Shown piece after piece: positions 5,294 to 64,000 of a stretch of DNA of 64,000 nt. Both the position numbers and the translations under genes were made by a program. The stretch comes from Leeuwenhoekiella palythoae (GTDB lineage Bacteria > Bacteroidota > Bacteroidia > Flavobacteriales > Flavobacteriaceae), in the NCBI RefSeq assembly GCF_900130045.1, contig NZ_FQXT01000004.1, positions 62,001 to 126,000 on the forward strand, in the 5' to 3' direction. The notes under the pieces were generated by a model. That model did no database searches and was not told where the DNA came from. It saw only the letters and a program-made list of their open reading frames with translations. Positions within the stretch are counted from its first letter, which is position 1. Every line of letters starts with the position of its first letter.

Positions 5294-5407
5294 CAGACTG
5301 TTAATATTATTGTTAAAAATTATGGTAAATAAAATTTAAATAGCTTTTGCTAATGATTGAATGCTATTTTTTAATCATTTTCTAACAAAATCGGCAAACT
5401 CAATAAA

Positions 5408-5446: not shown

Positions 5447-6940
5447 ATGGCAGAGCAAAAGAAAATGACCACCTCAGCGGGAGCACCGGTTTCTAATAAT
5501 CAGAAATCGCAAACAGCCGGCGATCGCGGTCCTGTGGTAATGCAGGATTACAAATTGTTTGAAAAATTAGCACACCAAAACCGTGAGCGCATTCCAGAGC
5601 GTACAGTGCACGCCAAAGGTTGGGGAGCACAAGGAACGTTTACTGTTACCCATGATATCACAAAATATACATGTGCCAAATTGTTTTCTGAAGTAGGGAA
5701 GCAAACTCCAATACTATCGCGTTTTTCTACAGTAGCCGGGGAAGCTGGCGCTGCAGATACCGAGCGTGATGTGCGCGGGTTTTCGCTGAAGTTTTATACC
5801 GAAGAAGGAAACTGGGATATGGTAGGGAATAACACCCCCGTATTCTTTATTCGTGACGGTTATAAATTCCCAGACTTTATTCATACGCAAAAGCGTCATC
5901 CTAAAACCAACTTGCGTTCGCCCGAAGCTATGTGGGATTATTGGTCGCTTTCTCCCGAAAGTTTACACCAAGTCACCATCTTAATGTCTGACCGTGGTAT
6001 TCCTAAGACGCCTATGCACATGAATGGCTACGGCTCGCACACCTTTAGTTTTTGGAATAAAGATGGAGAACGTTTTTGGGTGAAATTTCACTTCAAAACT
6101 CAGCAAGGAATAGAGAACTATACTAATGAAGAGGCTGCGGATATTATTGGGCAAACCCGTGAAAAATATCAGGAAGAATTGTTTAAAGCCATTGACGAAG
6201 GAAACTATCCTAAATGGACGTTGAAAATTCAGGTAATGCCGGAGGCCGAAGCAGAGAACTTACCGTTCAATCCGTTTGATCTTACTAAAGTATGGCCACA
6301 CGATGACTACCCGCTTATTGAAGTAGGGGAGTTGGAGCTGAATGAGAATCCTGAGAATTACTTTCAATTTATAGAGAATGCTGCGTATTCGCCTTCTAAC
6401 GTTGTGCCGGGTATTGGGTTCTCACCAGATAAGGTGTTGCAAGCGCGTATCTTCTCCTATGCCGATGCACACCGTTACCGTTTAGGAACGCATTATGAGG
6501 CATTGCCGGCTAATGCGCCTAAGAATGCGATGGTTAATCATTATCACAAAGATGGACCGATGCGTTTCTTTACCAACGATTTTGGAAATCCTGATGCGTA
6601 TTACGAACCGAATTCTAAAGGTGGTGCCGTTGAAGTACCGGAGGTTGAAGAGCCACCTATGCGCATTAGTGGTGATGTAAAACGCTATGAAGAGAATGAT
6701 GAGTTTGGCGTGTATAAGCAGCCGGGAGATCTATTCCGTTTGATGCCACAAGATGAAAAAGAGCGTATGTTTGTGACTATTGCTACTGCTTTAGATGGTG
6801 TTTCAGAACCTATTGTACAGCGTCAATTAGGTCATTTTTACAAGGCAGATCCTGCATACGGAAAAGGAGTGGAAGATGCGATCAAAGCGATGAAAACCGG
6901 TGTTGATCCTAACAGTAACGTGCTTCCGCAAGACGTATAA
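5447..6940 (+). CDS. katA: catalase (monofunctional haem, small subunit)
   Basis: The 497-residue protein decomposes hydrogen peroxide to water and oxygen. The family's active-site signature is intact: distal His55 in RTVHAKGWG, Asn129 in GNNTPVFF, and the haem-ligand Tyr338 in [14 protein letters not shown]. Length and the lack of a C-terminal flavodoxin-like domain fit small-subunit (clade 3) catalases. There is no signal peptide, so it is probably cytoplasmic. An own promoter element and a terminator bracket it, and the next gene is an ankyrin-repeat protein, a pairing known from other catalase loci, where the ankyrin partner supports catalase activity. The ATG at 5447 gives the expected N-terminus. 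Confidence 0.97.
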
Positions 6941-6959
6941 ACCACGATATATAAGATAT

Positions 6960-6997
6960 GCGAGGCGGATTAAATTATAGCTGCCTCGCTTTTTTTT
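6960..6997 (+). terminator. rho-independent terminator of katA
   Basis: GCGAGGC and GCCTCGC pair across an AT-rich loop and are followed by a run of eight T. It lies 20 bp after the katA stop and 24 bp before the ankyrin gene, so it may only partly separate the two. Confidence 0.85.
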
Positions 6998-7021
6998 GAA
7001 AAAATATAGTATTTTAACTAG

Positions 7022-7501
7022 ATGAAATCAGAATCTCTATTTAATGCCATTCGTTCTGAAGACGAGCAAACCGTAGCAGCGCTATTAACGGAGCACCCCG
7101 AATTGATCAACGAAAAAGACCAGCGCGGATCTACCCCGTTATTGTTAGCTACCTATTATGGACACAAAGGAATCGCCGAGACGATCATTGATAAAGGTGC
7201 TGCTATTGATGCTAAAGATGCCTCAGGAAATACCGCCTTAATGGGCGTGTGTTTTAAAGGATATACCGAAGTGGCAAAACTCCTGATCGATAAAGGTGCC
7301 GATGTCAATGTGCAGAACTTTAATGGAGCGACCGCATTGATCTATGCAGCTACGTTTAATCAAAAAGAACTGGTTGAATTGTTACTGGAGCGCGGGGCAA
7401 ACCCTGAATTAAGAGATTCTAGAGATCTAAAAGCCGAAGACCATGCACGTATGCAAGGTTTAGATCAAATAGAAAATCTATTAAAGCATGCTACACCCTA
7501 A
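7022..7501 (+). CDS. ankyrin-repeat protein, catalase-associated
   Basis: A 159-residue protein made almost entirely of ankyrin repeats. The consensus G-x-T-P/A-L-x-x-A is visible as GSTPLLLATYYGH (near 37), GNTALMGVCFKGY (near 70) and GATALIYAATFNQ (near 103), with G-A-x-I/V-D/N turns between. It has no signal peptide. Small ankyrin proteins next to katA in other bacteria (AnkB of Pseudomonas, Cj1386 of Campylobacter) are needed for full catalase activity, the latter through haem supply; I infer the same role here. Its last 14 bases overlap the next gene, so they are probably co-expressed. Confidence 0.85.
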   Translation: MKSESLFNAIRSEDEQTVAALLTEHPELINEKDQRGSTPLLLATYYGHKGIAETIIDKGAAIDAKDASGNTALMGVCFKGYTEVAKLLIDKGADVNVQNFNGATALIYAATFNQKELVELLLERGANPELRDSRDLKAEDHARMQGLDQIENLLKHATP

Positions 7502-8072
7502 AGTAGTACAAGACTTACACTCCATACGTTTTAGAAATGTTGGTTTTAAGCGTAAGCCGGTGCTGTACCCGCAGGCCGAACGTCAATTTAACCGATTTCT
7601 AATCAATGCTATCGGGCATAATGTATTTGTTATAAGCACTGGTCTGGGACTTGATGTGTACTATAGCAGTACCCAAGATTATTCTCAATTCATCAAAAAA
7701 AAATTGTGGTTGTTTAAACCCGCAAACGATGTAGTTGCTGAAAAACACTTCGTGGCTACTCTTCATGGTCCTGAAGTATTAGACTATTTTAATACGGTTG
7801 TAGATAGTTTGATCACACATCCCCAACTGTTTTTGTCCTGTTGTAAAAAGTTTATGCAGTATTATAAAGATGCCGGGGTGAAAACGCGTTTGTTGCAATT
7901 GCTTTACAGCACGTTTGAGGCACACCTCCAGGAGTTGATCAGTCAAGAACGTAGTCCGTATACCGGTAGGATCAAAAAAATGCTCAATGAGTCTGAAATT
8001 TCAGAGTTTAAGTATTTTGATGAGGTCGACCGCCTGGCGTATCAATCTAAAAATGCAAGGAATTTTAATTGA
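7488..8072 (+). CDS. conserved hypothetical protein behind the ankyrin gene
   Basis: I do not recognise this 194-residue protein. It is basic, without signal peptide or membrane segment, and looks mixed alpha/beta, with a helical C-terminal half rich in charged residues. A small CC pair (SCCKKF) lies near 119-120. The start overlaps the ankyrin gene by 14 bp, and its 3' end overlaps the convergent exonuclease gene by 8 bp. Co-expression with katA and the ankyrin gene is likely, so a link to peroxide or haem handling is possible but unproven. Confidence 0.65.
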   Translation: MLHPKVVQDLHSIRFRNVGFKRKPVLYPQAERQFNRFLINAIGHNVFVISTGLGLDVYYSSTQDYSQFIKKKLWLFKPANDVVAEKHFVATLHGPEVLDYFNTVVDSLITHPQLFLSCCKKFMQYYKDAGVKTRLLQLLYSTFEAHLQELISQERSPYTGRIKKMLNESEISEFKYFDEVDRLAYQSKNARNFN

Positions 8073-58094: not shown

Positions 58095-59534
58095 ATGAGA
58101 AAAACCATTGTACACATTTTAAAAGAAGAGCCCAAAGGGCACGAACTTACCGTAAAAGGATGGGTGAGATCGTTTAGAGCCAATCGCTTTATTGCGCTAA
58201 ATGACGGTTCTACGCTTAATAATTTACAGTGTGTCGTTGATTTTGAAAATACAGATCCAGAGCTTTTAAAACGTATTACCGTAGGAGCTGCAATCGCCGT
58301 TACCGGTAATCTTATCGAAAGTCAGGGCGGTGGTCAGGCTGTTGAAGTTGAAGCTAAAGAAATTAAAATTCTTGGCGATGCAGATCCTGAAGAGGTAAAG
58401 AAAACCATCTTGTCGCCTAAGCGTCATACGCTAGAGAAATTGCGCGAGCAAGCCCATTTACGTGTGCGTACCAATACTTTTGGTGCAGTGATGCGTTTGC
58501 GTTCGCAATTGAGCTTTGCGGTGCATCAATACTTTCAGAAAGAAGGTTTTTACTATGTAAATACGCCTATTGTAACGGGTAGTGATGCAGAAGGCGCGGG
58601 CGAAATGTTTAAAGTGACTGCTTTAGATATGAAAAATCCGCCGAAGGATGAGAATGGAAACATTGATTATAAAAAGGATTTCTTCGGAAAGGAAACTAAT
58701 TTGACGGTTTCTGGTCAGTTAGAAGGAGAAACTTATGCGTTGGGTCTGGGACAGATTTACACCTTTGGGCCAACCTTTAGAGCTGAAAATTCAAATACGA
58801 GCCGTCACTTGGCAGAATTCTGGATGATCGAGCCGGAAGTTGCTTTTTGCGACTTGGATATGAATATGGATCTGGCGGAAGACTTTATCAAATATGTGAT
58901 TCAGTTTGTTATGGATAACTGCCAGGATGATCTGGAGTTTTTAGAAAACCGATTGATCCAGGAAGATAAAAGCAAACCCGAAGCAGAGCGTGCGCCAATG
59001 CCGTTGCGTGAGAAATTAAAGTTTGTATTGGAGAACAACTTTAAGCGCGTAAGCTATACCGAAGCGATCGAGATCCTCAAAAACTCGAAGCCAAACAAAA
59101 AGAAAAAGTTCAAGTATCCTATTGAAACTTGGGGAGCCGACTTGCAAAGTGAGCACGAGCGTTTTCTTGTAGAGAAGCACTTCAAGTGCCCGGTGATCTT
59201 ATTTGATTATCCCGCAAATATCAAAGCGTTTTATATGCGCTTAAATGAAGACGGCAAAACCGTACGCGCGATGGATATTCTCTTCCCGGGAATTGGTGAG
59301 ATCGTAGGAGGTTCGCAGCGAGAAGAGCGTTTAGAAGTGTTGCAAGAAAAAATGGCAGCGCTAGACATCCCCGAAGAAGAACTGTGGTGGTATCTAGATA
59401 CCCGCCGTTTTGGTAGCTGTGTGCATAGTGGTTTTGGTCTTGGTTTTGAGCGTTTAGTACTATTCGCAACCGGAATGACCAATATTAGAGACGTGATTCC
59501 TTATCCACGTTTTCCGCAAAACGCTGAGTTTTAA
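58095..59534 (+). CDS. asnS: asparagine--tRNA ligase
   Basis: The 479-residue class IIb synthetase has an N-terminal OB-fold ([20 protein letters not shown], 20-39), motif 2 with [22 protein letters not shown] near 231-252, and motif 3 [16 protein letters not shown] near 448-463. The [10 protein letters not shown] pattern separates AsnRS from AspRS. Its presence means Asn-tRNA can be made directly. Single gene with promoter and terminator. Confidence 0.97.
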
Positions 59535-59550
59535 ACAGAGCAATAAATTA

Positions 59551-59591
59551 AAAAAAAGCCCGATTTAAATTTTTAAATCGGGCTTTTTTTT
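59551..59591 (+). terminator. terminator of asnS
   Basis: AAAGCCCGATTTAAA and TTTAAATCGGGCTTT form a very long perfect stem flanked by an A-run and nine T. Confidence 0.93.
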
Positions 59592-59694: not shown

Positions 59695-60333
59695 ATGAAA
59701 AAAACTACCCTAATTGCAGCGGTGCTTACTGCTGCATTTTTGATTACTTCTTGCGAAAAACCTTGCGAGTGCGAGGAGGCGGAAACGCCAATTCTAGGTG
59801 CTCCGGCTAATATTATTCCCTTAGCCCAGGCAGATTCGCTGTATAAAAATTACGGTAACAGTCGTGTTGAGCTTATCGAGCTCGCTGAAAACATCACCGA
59901 AGAAGGCGATACCATTCCTAAAGAGGACGCTAATTATAAACAGGCCACCCGTCTAGTTAGTTTCTCATTTGCTGAAATGAAAAAATATATGGCATACATC
60001 GAGGAGCAGGCAGATTCTGCCGGTGTAGAGGTTTTGGAACTACGGGTGTATTTTGGTAAATATGGTAAAAAACCTATTAAAAAAACTAAAGCAAATAAGG
60101 GGACAGTGTTTTTTAATCCCGCAGCTGAATTTGTTTTTGCAGATGGAACAAAAGATACTGTAAGTTTTGCTATTCTTAATAATGCTGATGGTTCTAAGAG
60201 TGCAGTGACTGTTGGATCTGTGTTGAATGGATCTGCTTTGACTTCAGGTTTGGGAGCAGAGGACGTTAACTCTCTTGCCGAGAATTTTGGCCAAGAAATG
60301 CCACCACCACCAATAAGTGATGAAGATTTTTAA
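59695..60333 (+). CDS. lipoprotein heading the 7TM/two-component operon
   Basis: A 212-residue lipoprotein: MKKTTLIAAVLTAAFLITSC is the signal peptide with lipobox I-T-S-C, followed by the cysteine-rich acidic start E-K-P-C-E-C-E-E-A. The middle holds FSFAEMKKYMAYIEEQAD and VEVLELRVYFGKYGKKP, a pattern I have seen in uncharacterised flavobacterial lipoproteins. The C-terminus is flexible (EMPPPPISDEDF). I chose the ATG at 59695 because an upstream frame start at 59590 would lie in the asnS terminator. It is 23 bp before three paralogous membrane proteins and a two-component pair, so it may bind a ligand for, or modulate, that system. Function unproven. Confidence 0.75.
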   Translation: MKKTTLIAAVLTAAFLITSCEKPCECEEAETPILGAPANIIPLAQADSLYKNYGNSRVELIELAENITEEGDTIPKEDANYKQATRLVSFSFAEMKKYMAYIEEQADSAGVEVLELRVYFGKYGKKPIKKTKANKGTVFFNPAAEFVFADGTKDTVSFAILNNADGSKSAVTVGSVLNGSALTSGLGAEDVNSLAENFGQEMPPPPISDEDF

Positions 60334-60356
60334 TCAACATCTAAGCTAGATTAAGG

Positions 60357-61094
60357 GTGACGATTGAATCACTAATAATTTCAGATTGGCAAGAGCGCAT
60401 TGCGTATTTCGTTACAAATCCAGGAATAATGATTTCTGATTTTGCCGAATTGCTGAGTTTCGTTTTCGGATTGATTTATTGGAATAATTTTAAACAAACG
60501 CCTATAAGGTGGTTTATTCTATTTCTAGGATATAATTTCTTTAACGAAATGGCTGCTTTAGCCTATTACGTTAGTGGCTTGAGTAATAACAATACTATTT
60601 TTTATAATGTGCATCAAGTCATTTACTTTAGTGTTCATTTTTACATTTTTTATAAATACCTATTACGAAAAAGGCTGAAACTTGCCGTTGTTCTCTTTTA
60701 TAGTGTTTGGTTGATAAGCTTTACGTATCAGCTTTTTACCAAAAATCTAGTTTTAGAATATGCATTGTTCTCAACGGTTCTCGGTGATTTTCTTAAGATG
60801 ATCAGTGTTTTATTTGTTTTTATAGAAGTCATTAATGCTTCAACTATTTCAAAGCTGCAAGACAACATGATTATTTATCTAGGCTTAGGGCTTTTGGTTT
60901 ATTTGGTAATTAGTATTCCAACTTCAGTCACTTCATTTGTGAGGTGGGAGAAAATTGGAAAGGATACGGGGCCAAGAATGGAGTTTTATCAGATTTTAAG
61001 AAATGTGGGCACTTTTGCTGGGGCTTTAATGTATTTCATTTTTGCTTATGGTTTTTATAGAGCAAAAGCACCAAGTATGAGTTTAACGCGGTAG
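60357..61094 (+). CDS. seven-helix membrane protein, paralogue 1 of 3
   Basis: A 245-residue integral membrane protein of a family I cannot name. About seven hydrophobic helices are visible (roughly 25-44, 52-75, 82-103, 108-127, 135-160, 170-195, 215-238). Shared with the two following genes are E-R near 14, N-P near 21, an E-L-L-S-F-V-x-G-L-x-Y-W stretch, FILFLGYNFFNE, FYN-x(4)-IYF, EVIN and the ending YGFYRAKAP. It lacks any enzymatic motif. The start codon is GTG (60357); homology with the paralogues begins a few residues later, so a later ATG is ruled out. Position between a lipoprotein and a histidine kinase suggests a signal-input role. Confidence 0.75.
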   Translation: MTIESLIISDWQERIAYFVTNPGIMISDFAELLSFVFGLIYWNNFKQTPIRWFILFLGYNFFNEMAALAYYVSGLSNNNTIFYNVHQVIYFSVHFYIFYKYLLRKRLKLAVVLFYSVWLISFTYQLFTKNLVLEYALFSTVLGDFLKMISVLFVFIEVINASTISKLQDNMIIYLGLGLLVYLVISIPTSVTSFVRWEKIGKDTGPRMEFYQILRNVGTFAGALMYFIFAYGFYRAKAPSMSLTR

Positions 61095-61132
61095 GCCAAA
61101 TAATTAATTTAGGATTTAAAAATTAGAGAAGA

Positions 61133-61855
61133 TTGGATTTAGAAATATCACAGGAACGTTTAGAGTTCATTTTGAGCAATCCATCCACGATGACCATGAC
61201 TGCGCTCGAGCTGCTTTCGTTTATAGTTGGCTTATGCTATTGGAAAAAGTTCTCTAAAACACCAATCGTCATTTTTATTCTTTTTTTAGGATATAACTTC
61301 TTGAATGAGGTAGCAGCTGCTTTTGTTGTGGTTGCTAATCTTGCCGATAGAAATACCGCATTTTACAATCTAAGATACTTGATTTATTTTTCAGCACTCT
61401 TTTGGATGTATTTCAAATACTTAAATAAACGTTCATTCAAAAATACAGTGGTCGCTTTTTATGCTCTATGGCTTTTGACGTATATCTATTTTGTAGCAAC
61501 AAGTTATTTTCTTTATCAAAAACCGCTATTTTCAGCAGTAACCGGTGATATGCTTCTGCTTGTGGTTGTTCTTTTATATTTGGTTGAAACAATAAATAGT
61601 GCAGATTTGAGCAAAATACAAGACCTTGTTTTGATTTATATAAGTATTGGTCTTGTGATAAGTACAGTCATTCAACTTCCTGTTTCTGTAGCCATATATG
61701 TAGGGTGGTATAAAATAACAGATGCTTCAGACAGTCTTAATGCATTTTATAATATCATTAGAGATGCTAGCTTTTGGGCTTATTGTGTTTCATATTTAAT
61801 TTTTGTTTATGGTTTTTATAGAGCTAAAGCACCAAGAACTAGTAATCTAAACTAA
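61133..61855 (+). CDS. seven-helix membrane protein, paralogue 2 of 3
   Basis: A 240-residue paralogue of its neighbours, with the same seven-helix pattern and the conserved SQERLEFILSNPS head, LELLSFIVGLCYWKKF, FILFLGYNFLNEVAA, FYNLRYLIYF, LVETIN, VGW and YGFYRAKAP tail. The only start that keeps the conserved head is TTG at 61133; no ATG fits. It is 38 bp after paralogue 1 and 8 bp before paralogue 3. By eye it is closer to paralogue 3 than to 1 (shared YWKKF, FLNEV, NASF/DASFW). The polar N-E in helix 2 and E-x-I-N at the end of helix 5 are unusual membrane residues and candidates for a ligand or ion site. Confidence 0.75.
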   Translation: MDLEISQERLEFILSNPSTMTMTALELLSFIVGLCYWKKFSKTPIVIFILFLGYNFLNEVAAAFVVVANLADRNTAFYNLRYLIYFSALFWMYFKYLNKRSFKNTVVAFYALWLLTYIYFVATSYFLYQKPLFSAVTGDMLLLVVVLLYLVETINSADLSKIQDLVLIYISIGLVISTVIQLPVSVAIYVGWYKITDASDSLNAFYNIIRDASFWAYCVSYLIFVYGFYRAKAPRTSNLN

Positions 61856-61863
61856 ATAAGCCA

Positions 61864-62598
61864 TTGCAAACCTCAATAATCACGTTTGAGTTTTCTTATG
61901 AACGTCTGGGATATTTGACTGGGAATCCCTCTTTGGTAATAATGTACTTTTTTGAGTTGGCTGCGTTTGTTACTGGTCTATATTATTGGAAAAAGTTTGA
62001 AAGTACCTCTATAATATGGTTCATTCTTTTTTTAGGGTATAATTTTTTAAATGAGGTCACAGCATCTACAATTTATATTTTTGGTTGGGCAGATCACACG
62101 AGCATATTCTATAATGTGCGTTACCCTATATATTTTGGAGTGTACTTTTATTTATTTTATCAATATGCCGTAAGCGATCGTTTCAGACAGATTATTTTGA
62201 TGATGTTTGGTCTCTGGTGTTTGAGCTATTTATACTTTGTATTTACTCATGGTATTGTAGAGGGGGTCGCTTTGTTTTCAAGAGTTTTTGGTGGTTTTTT
62301 ATTGCTCATAGTGATTCTCTTTTTTCTGATCGAAGTGATAAATAATAATTTAACCACCACCTTAAAAGATGTTTTTTTAGTTTATATAAGTATAGCACTG
62401 ATTCTAAATCTTGTGGTACAGTTACCTGTACTTACAATGACTTATGTAGGTTGGCCAAGAGTTATGGAGCTGAATGATGAGAGACGACAGTTTTTTAATA
62501 TAATTCGTAACGCAAGCTTTTGGGTGGCGAGTGCTATGTATCTAATTTTTATTTATGGTTTTTATAGAGCTAAATCTTCAAACTATTTAATGCAATAA
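61864..62598 (+). CDS. seven-helix membrane protein, paralogue 3 of 3
   Basis: A 244-residue paralogue with SYERLGYLTGNPS, FELAAFVTGLYYWKKF, WFILFLGYNFLNEV, FYNVRYPIYF, FLIEVIN, YVGW and YGFYRAKSS. Like the second copy it must start at a TTG (61864) to include the conserved head; the first ATG is 25 codons later. The histidine kinase gene starts 2 bp after its stop, a spacing that implies coupled translation and a close functional tie. Confidence 0.75.
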   Translation: MQTSIITFEFSYERLGYLTGNPSLVIMYFFELAAFVTGLYYWKKFESTSIIWFILFLGYNFLNEVTASTIYIFGWADHTSIFYNVRYPIYFGVYFYLFYQYAVSDRFRQIILMMFGLWCLSYLYFVFTHGIVEGVALFSRVFGGFLLLIVILFFLIEVINNNLTTTLKDVFLVYISIALILNLVVQLPVLTMTYVGWPRVMELNDERRQFFNIIRNASFWVASAMYLIFIYGFYRAKSSNYLMQ

Positions 62599-62600
62599 CT

Positions 62601-63359
62601 ATGGATCAGGATACGCAGCTTTTAGTCATATTGGTTGTTTTGCTGGTATTATTCCTGCTGGCGGTGATCATTTTTGTCCTGTTTTCAGTATTTATGAAAC
62701 GTAAAAACAGTTTGCTGCGCGAGCAAATAGAAGCCGAAAAACGCTACGAACGCGCTATTGCAGAAACCCAAATAGAGATACGCGAAGAAACTTTACGTAA
62801 CATCAGTTGGGAATTGCACGATAATATTGGCCAGTTGCTCACCTTAGCCAAGATTAAAGCGCAAAATATAGAAGATGGTGAAGATATGCTCGAAGTCGCA
62901 GAAACGATAGGAACGGGCTTAAATGAGCTCAGGGCGTTGTCAAAATCGATCAACCCAGAAGCGATTAACGGTCAGTCGCTTCTAAAGTCCTTAGAAAACG
63001 AAGTGGCCCGCTTTAACCGCTTAAAATTTCTTTCGGCAACCTATGATTTGATCGGTGATCCTGTGCAACTTAATCCTAAAGCGGAAATAATTTTGTTTCG
63101 GATAGTACAAGAGTTTATGAGTAACACGATGAAGCATTCTAAGGCGTCCAAACTGCAGATACGTGTTCAGTTTAAAGCTGATGCATTAGAGATCACTGCA
63201 CTAGATGATGGGGTAGGTTTTGACGCAGAGAAACTATTAGAGCGCGGTATAGGTTTAAGTAACATAGATAAACGTGCCCAATTGATAGGAGCGCAGGCAC
63301 GTATAAGTTCTATTCCCGGGGCTGGGACTCAATTAAAATTATATTATCCTTTAGATTAG
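62601..63359 (+). CDS. NarL-type sensor histidine kinase with minimal input part
   Basis: The 252-residue kinase consists of one N-terminal membrane helix (about 7-32), a short coiled linker, a HisKA_3 dimerisation domain with the phosphorylated His in WELHDNIGQLLT (near 69-80), and an HATPase domain. The ATPase boxes are E-F-M-S-N-T-M-K-H (N box, near 172-180), DDGVGFD (near 202-208) and RGIGLSNIDKRAQLIGA (near 214-230). There is no extracellular or PAS/GAF sensor, so the signal must come from partner proteins, most plausibly the seven-helix proteins just upstream. It phosphorylates the LuxR-type regulator encoded 10 bp downstream. Confidence 0.92.
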   Translation: MDQDTQLLVILVVLLVLFLLAVIIFVLFSVFMKRKNSLLREQIEAEKRYERAIAETQIEIREETLRNISWELHDNIGQLLTLAKIKAQNIEDGEDMLEVAETIGTGLNELRALSKSINPEAINGQSLLKSLENEVARFNRLKFLSATYDLIGDPVQLNPKAEIILFRIVQEFMSNTMKHSKASKLQIRVQFKADALEITALDDGVGFDAEKLLERGIGLSNIDKRAQLIGAQARISSIPGAGTQLKLYYPLD

Positions 63360-63369
63360 AAATTAGAAT

Positions 63370-64000
63370 ATGTATAAAGTTGCTTTAGTAGATGATCACA
63401 CCTTGCTGTCAGAGGCCATTGCGGGATTAGTAAGACGTTTTGAGAATTTTGAAGTTGTCAACGTTTCGGTTAACGGAAGAGAGTTGGTAGACTTTATCGA
63501 GGCCAATCCTCACATGCAACCAGATGTTGTGCTTATGGATGTAAAAATGCCCGTGATGGGCGGGGTCGAAACTACGCAGTATTTAACAAAGTACTATCCT
63601 GAGATCAAGGTGCTGGCGCTTTCGGTAGAGGAAGAAGAGGGCGTGGTTATGCAAATGATTCGCGCTGGAGCTAAGGGGTATTTATTAAAAGACACACGCA
63701 AATCTATTTTAGAGCAAGCCTTAAATGAAGTGCTTGAGCACGGATATTATTATACCAATACGGTTGAGCGTATCGTCAAGAAAACGGAGCGTTTAAAAGA
63801 TCAAGAAATCGTCTTAAAAGAACGAGAAATTGAATTTATCAAACACGCCTGCACCGAAATGACCTATAAAGAGATCGCTGAAAAAATGTTTTTAAGTCCT
63901 AAAACTATTGAAGGTTATCGAGAATCGGTTTTTCAAAAACTAGGTTTAAAAAACCGCACGGGATTGGTGATCTATGCTATTAAGAATAATATTTTCGTCC
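63370..64000 (+). CDS. LuxR/NarL-type response regulator (3' end cut)
   Basis: The frame is open to the window edge; 210 residues are visible. The N-terminal receiver domain has the acidic pair in ALVDDH, phospho-acceptor Asp in VVLMDVKMP (near 57), a conserved Ser in LALSVEEE, and Lys in GYLLKDT. A LuxR-type helix-turn-helix follows: LKEREIEFIKHACTEMTYKE and the recognition helix in FLSPKTIEGYRESVFQKLG. It is probably nearly complete, because the HTH ends a few residues before the cut. With the kinase it forms a canonical two-component pair whose targets are unknown. Confidence 0.93.
   Translation, partial: MYKVALVDDHTLLSEAIAGLVRRFENFEVVNVSVNGRELVDFIEANPHMQPDVVLMDVKMPVMGGVETTQYLTKYYPEIKVLALSVEEEEGVVMQMIRAGAKGYLLKDTRKSILEQALNEVLEHGYYYTNTVERIVKKTERLKDQEIVLKEREIEFIKHACTEMTYKEIAEKMFLSPKTIEGYRESVFQKLGLKNRTGLVIYAIKNNIFV

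Follow-up and report, generated by a model that had tools for sequence, protein, structure and literature searches.

A seven-helix membrane protein and its companion as the predicted separate input of a one-helix histidine kinase in Flavobacteriaceae

We report a two-component system of Leeuwenhoekiella palythoae (Flavobacteriaceae) in which the signal input is predicted to reside in a protein separate from the kinase. The system is encoded at the end of the window, i.e. the whole stretch of 64,000 nucleotides that was analysed (positions 62,001 to 126,000 of contig NZ_FQXT01000004.1, assembly GCF_900130045.1), by a same-strand run of six genes between asnS and rpoN: a lipoprotein gene (hereafter LIPO), three genes for paralogous seven-transmembrane (7TM) proteins, A, B and C, a gene for a histidine kinase with one membrane helix and a gene for a LuxR-type response regulator (Table 1). 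We consider it rather probable that this is a split-input two-component system, with the 7TM protein and its companion as a detachable receptor input of the kinase. This is a reading at the level of genes, from which we infer physical contact, the direction of control, a ligand and a role for the lipoprotein.

The mechanism that we propose runs as follows. The 7TM protein with its companion (here the lipoprotein) would form a stand-alone receptor unit, which would contact the kinase at its single N-terminal membrane helix and control it, moving or pairing with that helix as described for sensory rhodopsin and its transducer; the kinase would then hand phosphate to the LuxR-type regulator. The companion, putatively a ligand binder or co-receptor, would shape or carry the signal, comparable to the role given to QseG for QseE in the abstract cited below. 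A single 7TM protein would suffice: three copies would be a local expansion of the input, by which one kinase may read several signals, and tandem copies and block replacement would change what is sensed, not what is done.

The 7TM gene and the sensorless kinase

With protein C of the window as query, matches were found in 18 of 149 family genomes, its own included. A profile built from 24 rows of the 7TM protein matches 253 of 397 family genomes; across the phylum 43 of 296 genomes match, 24 of them outside the family. An earlier reading of this DNA from its letters alone (the sequence-only reading) had proposed to check by profiles whether kinase genes co-occur with the 7TM genes, and the check was run from both sides. 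From the 7TM side, 98 family neighbourhoods were inspected: that of the window, one for each of the 17 other genomes matching protein C, and 80 profile matches picked from the rows listed, mostly one per genus. A short kinase follows the 7TM gene in 63 of the 98, and the regulator gene is next after the kinase in 53 of these. Some modules (L263, L274, L277 and similar) end at the kinase with no adjoining regulator gene; their partner regulator may be located elsewhere. From the kinase side, a kinase profile run against 120 genomes yielded, at E <= 1e-40, a total of 89 rows, of which 84 score 249 bits or more and the next 158 bits. Eighteen of the 89 were left out (14 short kinases, three of which lie within the 98 neighbourhoods, and four in long frames), and among the 69 loci fetched around a short kinase 66 have a 7TM gene immediately upstream. 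At L297 a LIPO gene intervenes between the two; at L299, the locus of the 158-bit kinase, the preceding membrane protein scores 0.5 bits with the 7TM profile and is possibly a distant relative. In the genome of the window itself both short kinases follow a 7TM gene, the five other matches lying in frames of at least 600 amino acids (aa). This genome also holds a second full LIPO-7TM-kinase-regulator module, with one 7TM gene (L292; G000:C9:269000-278500).

A locus scan with protein C alone gave no loci, and one with alignment A4 gave 80 named loci (in Aquimarina, Aequorivita, Maribacter, Kordia, Zobellia and others). A kinase is present in 58 of these and absent from 22, at least three of which (L143, L162, L175) end less than 500 bases from the 7TM gene, where a kinase would be invisible; by a stricter chain criterion 57 of the 80 lead into a kinase. 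The protein-C, profile and named-locus sets share species and are not independent. The 7TM and kinase open reading frames (ORFs) overlap or lie at most 30 bp apart in 179 of 187 junctions, a count in which the earliest possible starts exaggerate overlap and some loci occur in more than one set. Since the same gene order recurs elsewhere, the arrangement of the window locus is more than chance. No common target gene was seen beside the kinase modules, whose sites vary.

Histidine kinases usually hold their sensor in the same chain. The kinase of the window has HisKA_3 (25.2 bits, cut-off 24) and HATPase_c (45.9 bits, cut-off 26.4) in Pfam, and the regulator a Response_reg and a GerE domain; with the H box of the kinase and the receiver of the regulator this is a two-component system of the NarL type, as the sequence-only reading had it. 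That reading had also given the kinase a single membrane helix, in agreement with the hydropathy of 165 related kinases (one helix in 160, two in five). The E-x-H-D box is found in 163 of the 165; in these 163, where the H box is clear, its start lies at a median of 75 residues, too early in the chain for a sensor domain to fit before it. Few residues lie outside the membrane, and the catalytic motifs (phospho-acceptor, ATPase) are conserved. A sensorless kinase, a near-constant 7TM neighbour and the lack of a match at cut-off to an enzyme or transporter family among the window proteins together make an input moved to a separate membrane protein, as first proposed from the letters, the best reading of the locus.

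The 7TM proteins A, B and C are paralogues, as had been claimed (BLAST identity 42-46%); the motif YGFYRAK is indeed present in all three, near the C-terminus rather than at the very end where it had been placed. None of them is assigned to any family of Pfam or NCBIfam at its cut-off, and so the match to a known enzyme or transporter family that the sequence-only reading had named as a refutation does not occur at cut-off for the window proteins. Among 77 relatives the Pfam and NCBIfam rows, given in the output without cut-offs, are scattered and weak: DUF6962 in one (E 1.4e-5), DUF6768 in eight (best E 1.2e-4) and Cytochrom_C_asm in one (E 3e-4), with enzyme or transporter rows rare and weak. 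A sequence search of the PDB gave no match. The predicted structure of C shows seven long helices (mean predicted local distance difference test, pLDDT, 91.6; predicted TM-score, pTM, 0.88). Foldseek returned no row at E <= 0.001 for it against the PDB; the best 50 rows are mostly G-protein-coupled receptors, adiponectin receptors and rhodopsins (best TM-score among these rows 0.51), headed by AdipoR1 at E 0.23. An N-out, C-in orientation is suggested by the basic residues that follow helix 1 and those at the C-terminus; the loop preceding helix 7 likewise holds basic residues.

Several assignments of the 7TM protein were tried and rejected. Microbial rhodopsins bind retinal through a lysine in helix 7; in the 7TM alignment lysine never exceeds 14% in a column of reference positions 210-230, which rejects a retinal opsin. 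The 7TMR-DISM proteins (PF07695) are bacterial seven-helix receptors tied to signalling outputs. The 7TM protein here is, by contrast, unfused to an output, and A, B and C have no PF07695 row at E <= 1, one of the 77 relatives having one at E 0.0094. Members of the CREST superfamily (adiponectin receptor, alkaline ceramidase) carry SxxxH and HxxxH motifs (PMC3146951). A CREST-like hydrolase is rejected, as only two of 190 7TM rows have SxxxH and HxxxH anywhere.

Variation of the input genes and their companions

In a genus set of 13 genomes, asnS was found in 12 and the module lies between asnS and rpoN in ten. At this site there are three 7TM copies in G000, the genome of the window, and in its sister genome G679, two in G685 and one in the other seven; G684 has 155 bp from asnS to rpoN and no module. 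In G686 (L334) the regulator gene stands alone between asnS and rpoN. The triplication is local variation, the genus ranging from zero to three 7TM genes at the asnS-rpoN site. In the sequence-only reading the three paralogues, singly or as heteromers, gate one kinase. Triplication and heteromers are not supported as a defining feature, with one 7TM gene in seven of the ten genus modules and, among the 63 kinase loci of the family, one beside the kinase in 58, two in three and three in two.

At some loci the input genes are replaced over a constant kinase and regulator. Between the close species G144 and G329 protein identity is 99% for AsnS, 98% for RpoN, 96% each for the kinase and the regulator, 64% for LIPO and 43% for the 7TM protein. 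In 100-bp steps, nucleotide identity stays at 89-100% across asnS. It is 91-92% where LIPO begins, drops to 75% and then to 45-63% over the remainder of LIPO and the greater part of the 7TM gene, and recovers to 81% in the final 100 bases of that gene, with 82-91% for the kinase gene. Synonymous divergence (dS) rises from 0.16 in asnS through 0.33 in rpoN, 0.37 in the regulator and 0.66 in the kinase to 1.20 in LIPO and 1.62 in the 7TM gene. The other module in these two genomes, the counterpart of L292, is conserved (7TM 98%, kinase 97%, LIPO 93%, regulator 98%), so that the variability belongs to the asnS-rpoN locus. Aquimarina provides an independent case: L141 and L201 have identical regulators (100%) and kinases at 94%, with the 7TM protein at 47% and LIPO at 33%; blastn aligns them at 90% up to base 4104 of L141 and at 87% from base 5340 on, with no match longer than 100 bases between, a segment that comprises LIPO and over half of the 7TM gene. 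High dS together with sharp edges favours recombination over fast point change as the probable source of the replacement.

Such replacement was observed in two genera and does not hold generally, many loci being without it. Nine pairs among 145 modules have kinases at least 95% identical, and the 7TM proteins are 92-99% identical in eight of them, falling to 43% only in G144/G329; in the 15 pairs with kinases at 90-95% the 7TM identity is 46-82% (mean 59) and the regulator mean 93%. Between G000 and G679, A and B are 93-94% identical (dS 0.15-0.16, against 0.44 for asnS), while the third copies differ. Variation confined to the extracellular half of the 7TM protein was considered and is weak at best: over 15 genus sequences the mean identity is 0.53 for the inner and 0.44 for the outer helix halves (p 0.044), and helices TM3 and TM4 show the opposite trend. 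Four short ORFs matching the 7TM protein, which resemble broken copies, follow the full 7TM gene of L066 (G307) at 6356-7689.

The sequence-only reading gave the lipoprotein no role, though in constancy LIPO roughly equals the 7TM gene: it adjoins the 7TM gene in 97 of the 98 family loci, the exception (L113) starting at a contig end. LIPO is duplicated together with the 7TM gene in some loci, and several Aquimarina loci repeat the lipoprotein-7TM unit in tandem. A lipobox-like pattern is found in 143 of 182 LIPO sequences under a loose rule and in 45 under a strict one; in 175 the last 30 residues contain a PP pair. For LIPO of the window no Pfam or NCBIfam row was found at E <= 1; among 60 relatives one has TcaA_2nd (E 8e-4), the other rows being weak and scattered. 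The PDB sequence search found a single row, covering the N-terminal 35 positions at E 0.94, and the structure model (mean pLDDT 85.5) no Foldseek row against the PDB at E <= 0.001. At L057, L069 and L166 (the last from Kordia algicida) two additional, longer LIPO-like genes stand in tandem upstream of the module.

Outside the family, 20 loci were inspected. The kinase profile scores at least 100 bits in 18 of them, and LIPO is matched in 13; of the two others, L215 encodes a His_kinase of the LytS type together with a LytTR regulator, and the kinase of L229 is a PAS kinase. A further class of the phylum has 7TM matches in 19 of 197 genomes, and each of the 19 loci (L336-L354) has an ORF of 103-296 aa ahead of the 7TM gene; 17 of the 19 have a downstream ORF of at least 120 aa listed, and judged by eye most of these start with one membrane helix. 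Five of the 17 were scanned in Pfam, with HisKA_3 in two, PAS and HisKA in one, and PAS or GAF domains in the remaining two, which are cut by the locus end. The 7TM family precedes one-helix kinases with differing cores. Alignment of 14 of the 19 upstream ORFs shows a common GIRYYY-like motif, and eight of the 14 have CPPxC near the end. Homology of LIPO to these other-class companions is possible, hhalign giving a probability of 88% with alignment A2 and 17% with alignment A6.

A receptor part swapped over a constant kinase points to an interchangeable sensing system that is as yet undescribed. A wider proposal, which we advance tentatively and as doubtful in its full form, is that of a receptor cassette, consisting of a free-standing seven-helix receptor and its companion. 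Throughout Bacteroidota it would plug into different classes of one-helix kinase, and at some loci it would be hypervariable and block-exchanged among near relatives, such that strains sharing a kinase and regulator would answer different signals, as in pherotypes or kin recognition. A large unnamed seven-helix family would then appear as a separate, swappable input for several kinase classes in a major phylum, and if this is true two protein families unnamed in Pfam and NCBIfam would gain a function. The receptor alleles on a constant kinase would form a natural library, in effect a signal-coupling experiment done by evolution, and would raise the question of which signal changes so fast.

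Alternative readings and related systems

Several observations weigh against a split input. At L298 a short kinase stands without a 7TM gene upstream, and no 7TM-kinase fusion was found among the matches listed, the longest open frame being 307 aa. The 7TM protein and LIPO can decouple: they are 41% and 82% identical in G329/G680, and 46% and 78% in L141/L148. In favour of the split input, on the other hand, the partial correlation of 7TM with LIPO identity given kinase identity is 0.34 over 145 modules (reached by none of 999 permutations), with phylogeny controlled through kinase identity only. Also against it, several companions in the other class, such as those of L345, L348, L349 and L350, have no visible signal peptide, whereas the companion in the family of the window is mostly a lipoprotein, and a companion that changes membrane side limits any model with an always-outside ligand and is a poor fit to a simple periplasmic-ligand model. 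Lastly, LIPO-7TM loci linked to rho and lacking a kinase (among them L030, L033 and L038) make up 34 of the 98, and the genomes G011, G032 and G037, which have kinase-less loci, give no kinase match at E <= 1e-40.

These kinase-less loci and genomes imply that the LIPO-7TM pair can act without this kinase. The sequence-only reading would have been refuted by 7TM homologues usually found without a kinase nearby, and that is the case for the rho-linked minority and not for the majority. A 35th kinase-less locus (L102) is cut by a contig end. The name rho rests on 34 upstream genes forming one sequence cluster, of which the member scanned in Pfam is Rho; an rpsT cluster is also present in 29 of the kinase-less loci and a proS cluster in 31. 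In a quick, midpoint-rooted tree of 190 7TM rows, with 76 of 187 inner branches open, a single clade (SH-aLRT 99) unites 47 kinase-less rows and sits inside kinase-linked ones, and the kinase-less label requires five changes, against 45 in shuffles. Kinase loss in the rho-linked clade thus looks derived.

The existence of such kinase-less units is also what an alternative would expect in which the 7TM protein acts as an enzyme or exporter. It would make, process or release a signal, perhaps one derived from the lipoprotein, and the kinase would use its own helix to sense that signal or the membrane, in the manner of peptide quorum-sensing loci. A variable LIPO and 7TM protein over a constant kinase likewise resembles a signal-receptor polymorphism. 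We nevertheless hold this alternative to be unlikely: within the 7TM helices Glu64 (TM2) is the only charged or histidine column conserved in at least 70% of 190 rows (78%), and no His or Asp column reaches 50%; the window proteins match no enzyme or transporter family at cut-off, such rows being rare and weak among the relatives; and the kinase exposes few residues beyond the membrane.

It is improbable, too, that the 7TM protein and the lipoprotein are negative regulators or assembly factors (LiaF-like) of an intramembrane-sensing kinase that would itself sense envelope stress. The best named NCBIfam models for the kinase, UhpB, MctS and LiaS, lend this some colour, all scoring far under their cut-offs (UhpB, the top row, 85 bits against 408), whereas replacement of the 7TM protein over a constant kinase would fit the input of a changing signal better than a fixed stress brake. 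An obligate heteromeric receptor made up of A, B and C, the stronger version of the sequence-only reading, is very improbable: three tandem copies are present in the window and in G679, as are three in L028, but single-7TM loci prevail both in the family and in the genus, and G000 and G679 have A and B in common, not the third copy.

The split-input reading places the locus in a known class, that of two-component systems with a separate membrane input, to which a sensorless kinase adjoining a conserved membrane protein gene, in an UhpBC-like arrangement, belongs. UhpC-UhpB-UhpA is an accessory-sensor two-component system in which UhpC is transporter-like and UhpB has many helices. It shares with the present system a HisKA_3-type kinase, a LuxR-type regulator and the assignment of sensing to an adjoining separate membrane protein; here, in contrast, the partner is an unclassified seven-helix protein, the kinase has one helix and there is a near-constant companion. 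Sensory rhodopsin II and HtrII pair a stand-alone seven-helix receptor, which hands on a signal, with the membrane helices of a separate protein, whereas here there is no retinal lysine and the predicted partner is the kinase itself. In QseG-QseE an accessory lipoprotein binds and activates a histidine kinase through its C-terminal domain, and the abstract names no 7TM partner (PMC12691602). In the ComQXPA loci a membrane input that varies is combined with a conserved regulator and a kinase of the HisKA_3 type, and the loci fall into pherotype groups; the variable membrane part of ComP is fused to the kinase, while here it is a separate gene (PMC4008528). A membrane input that varies while kinase and regulator are conserved is found at the window locus and in Aquimarina, not at all loci. 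None of the six proteins is a ComQ-like isoprenyl transferase by Pfam and NCBIfam, peptide ORFs under 60 aa not having been looked for. Neither the module nor an exchangeable 7TM cassette on a constant kinase is described in the titles or opening abstract lines of the papers listed by word-based full-text search of the open PMC library, subscription papers lying outside it.

Layout of the window locus

The gaps of 23, 38, 8, 2 and 10 bp first reported between the six genes hold for the chosen starts; those of A, B and C are uncertain, since A begins with GTG and B and C with TTG. Upstream the run is flanked by asnS, which is followed by a terminator-like hairpin, and the module may have its own promoter downstream of this hairpin.

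Table 1. Coordinates of the six-gene module and its upstream flank in the window
Feature	Position	Strand	Basis
asnS, upstream flank, outside the module	58095..59534	+	ORF reading
Terminator-like hairpin 3' of asnS	59550..59591	+	Consensus match (L004 3551-3592, minus-strand listing)
LIPO, lipoprotein, companion of the 7TM proteins; lipobox-like LITSC, PPPP stretch near the C-terminus	59695..60333	+	
7TM protein A	60357..61094	+	ORF, paralogue of B and C
7TM protein B	61133..61855	+	ORF, paralogue of A and C
7TM protein C	61864..62598	+	ORF, paralogy, structure model
One-helix histidine kinase, HisKA_3 and HATPase_c, without sensor domain	62601..63359	+	Pfam, hydropathy
NarL/LuxR-type response regulator	63370..64000 (window end)	+	Pfam; ORF ends at 64005, five bases past the window end

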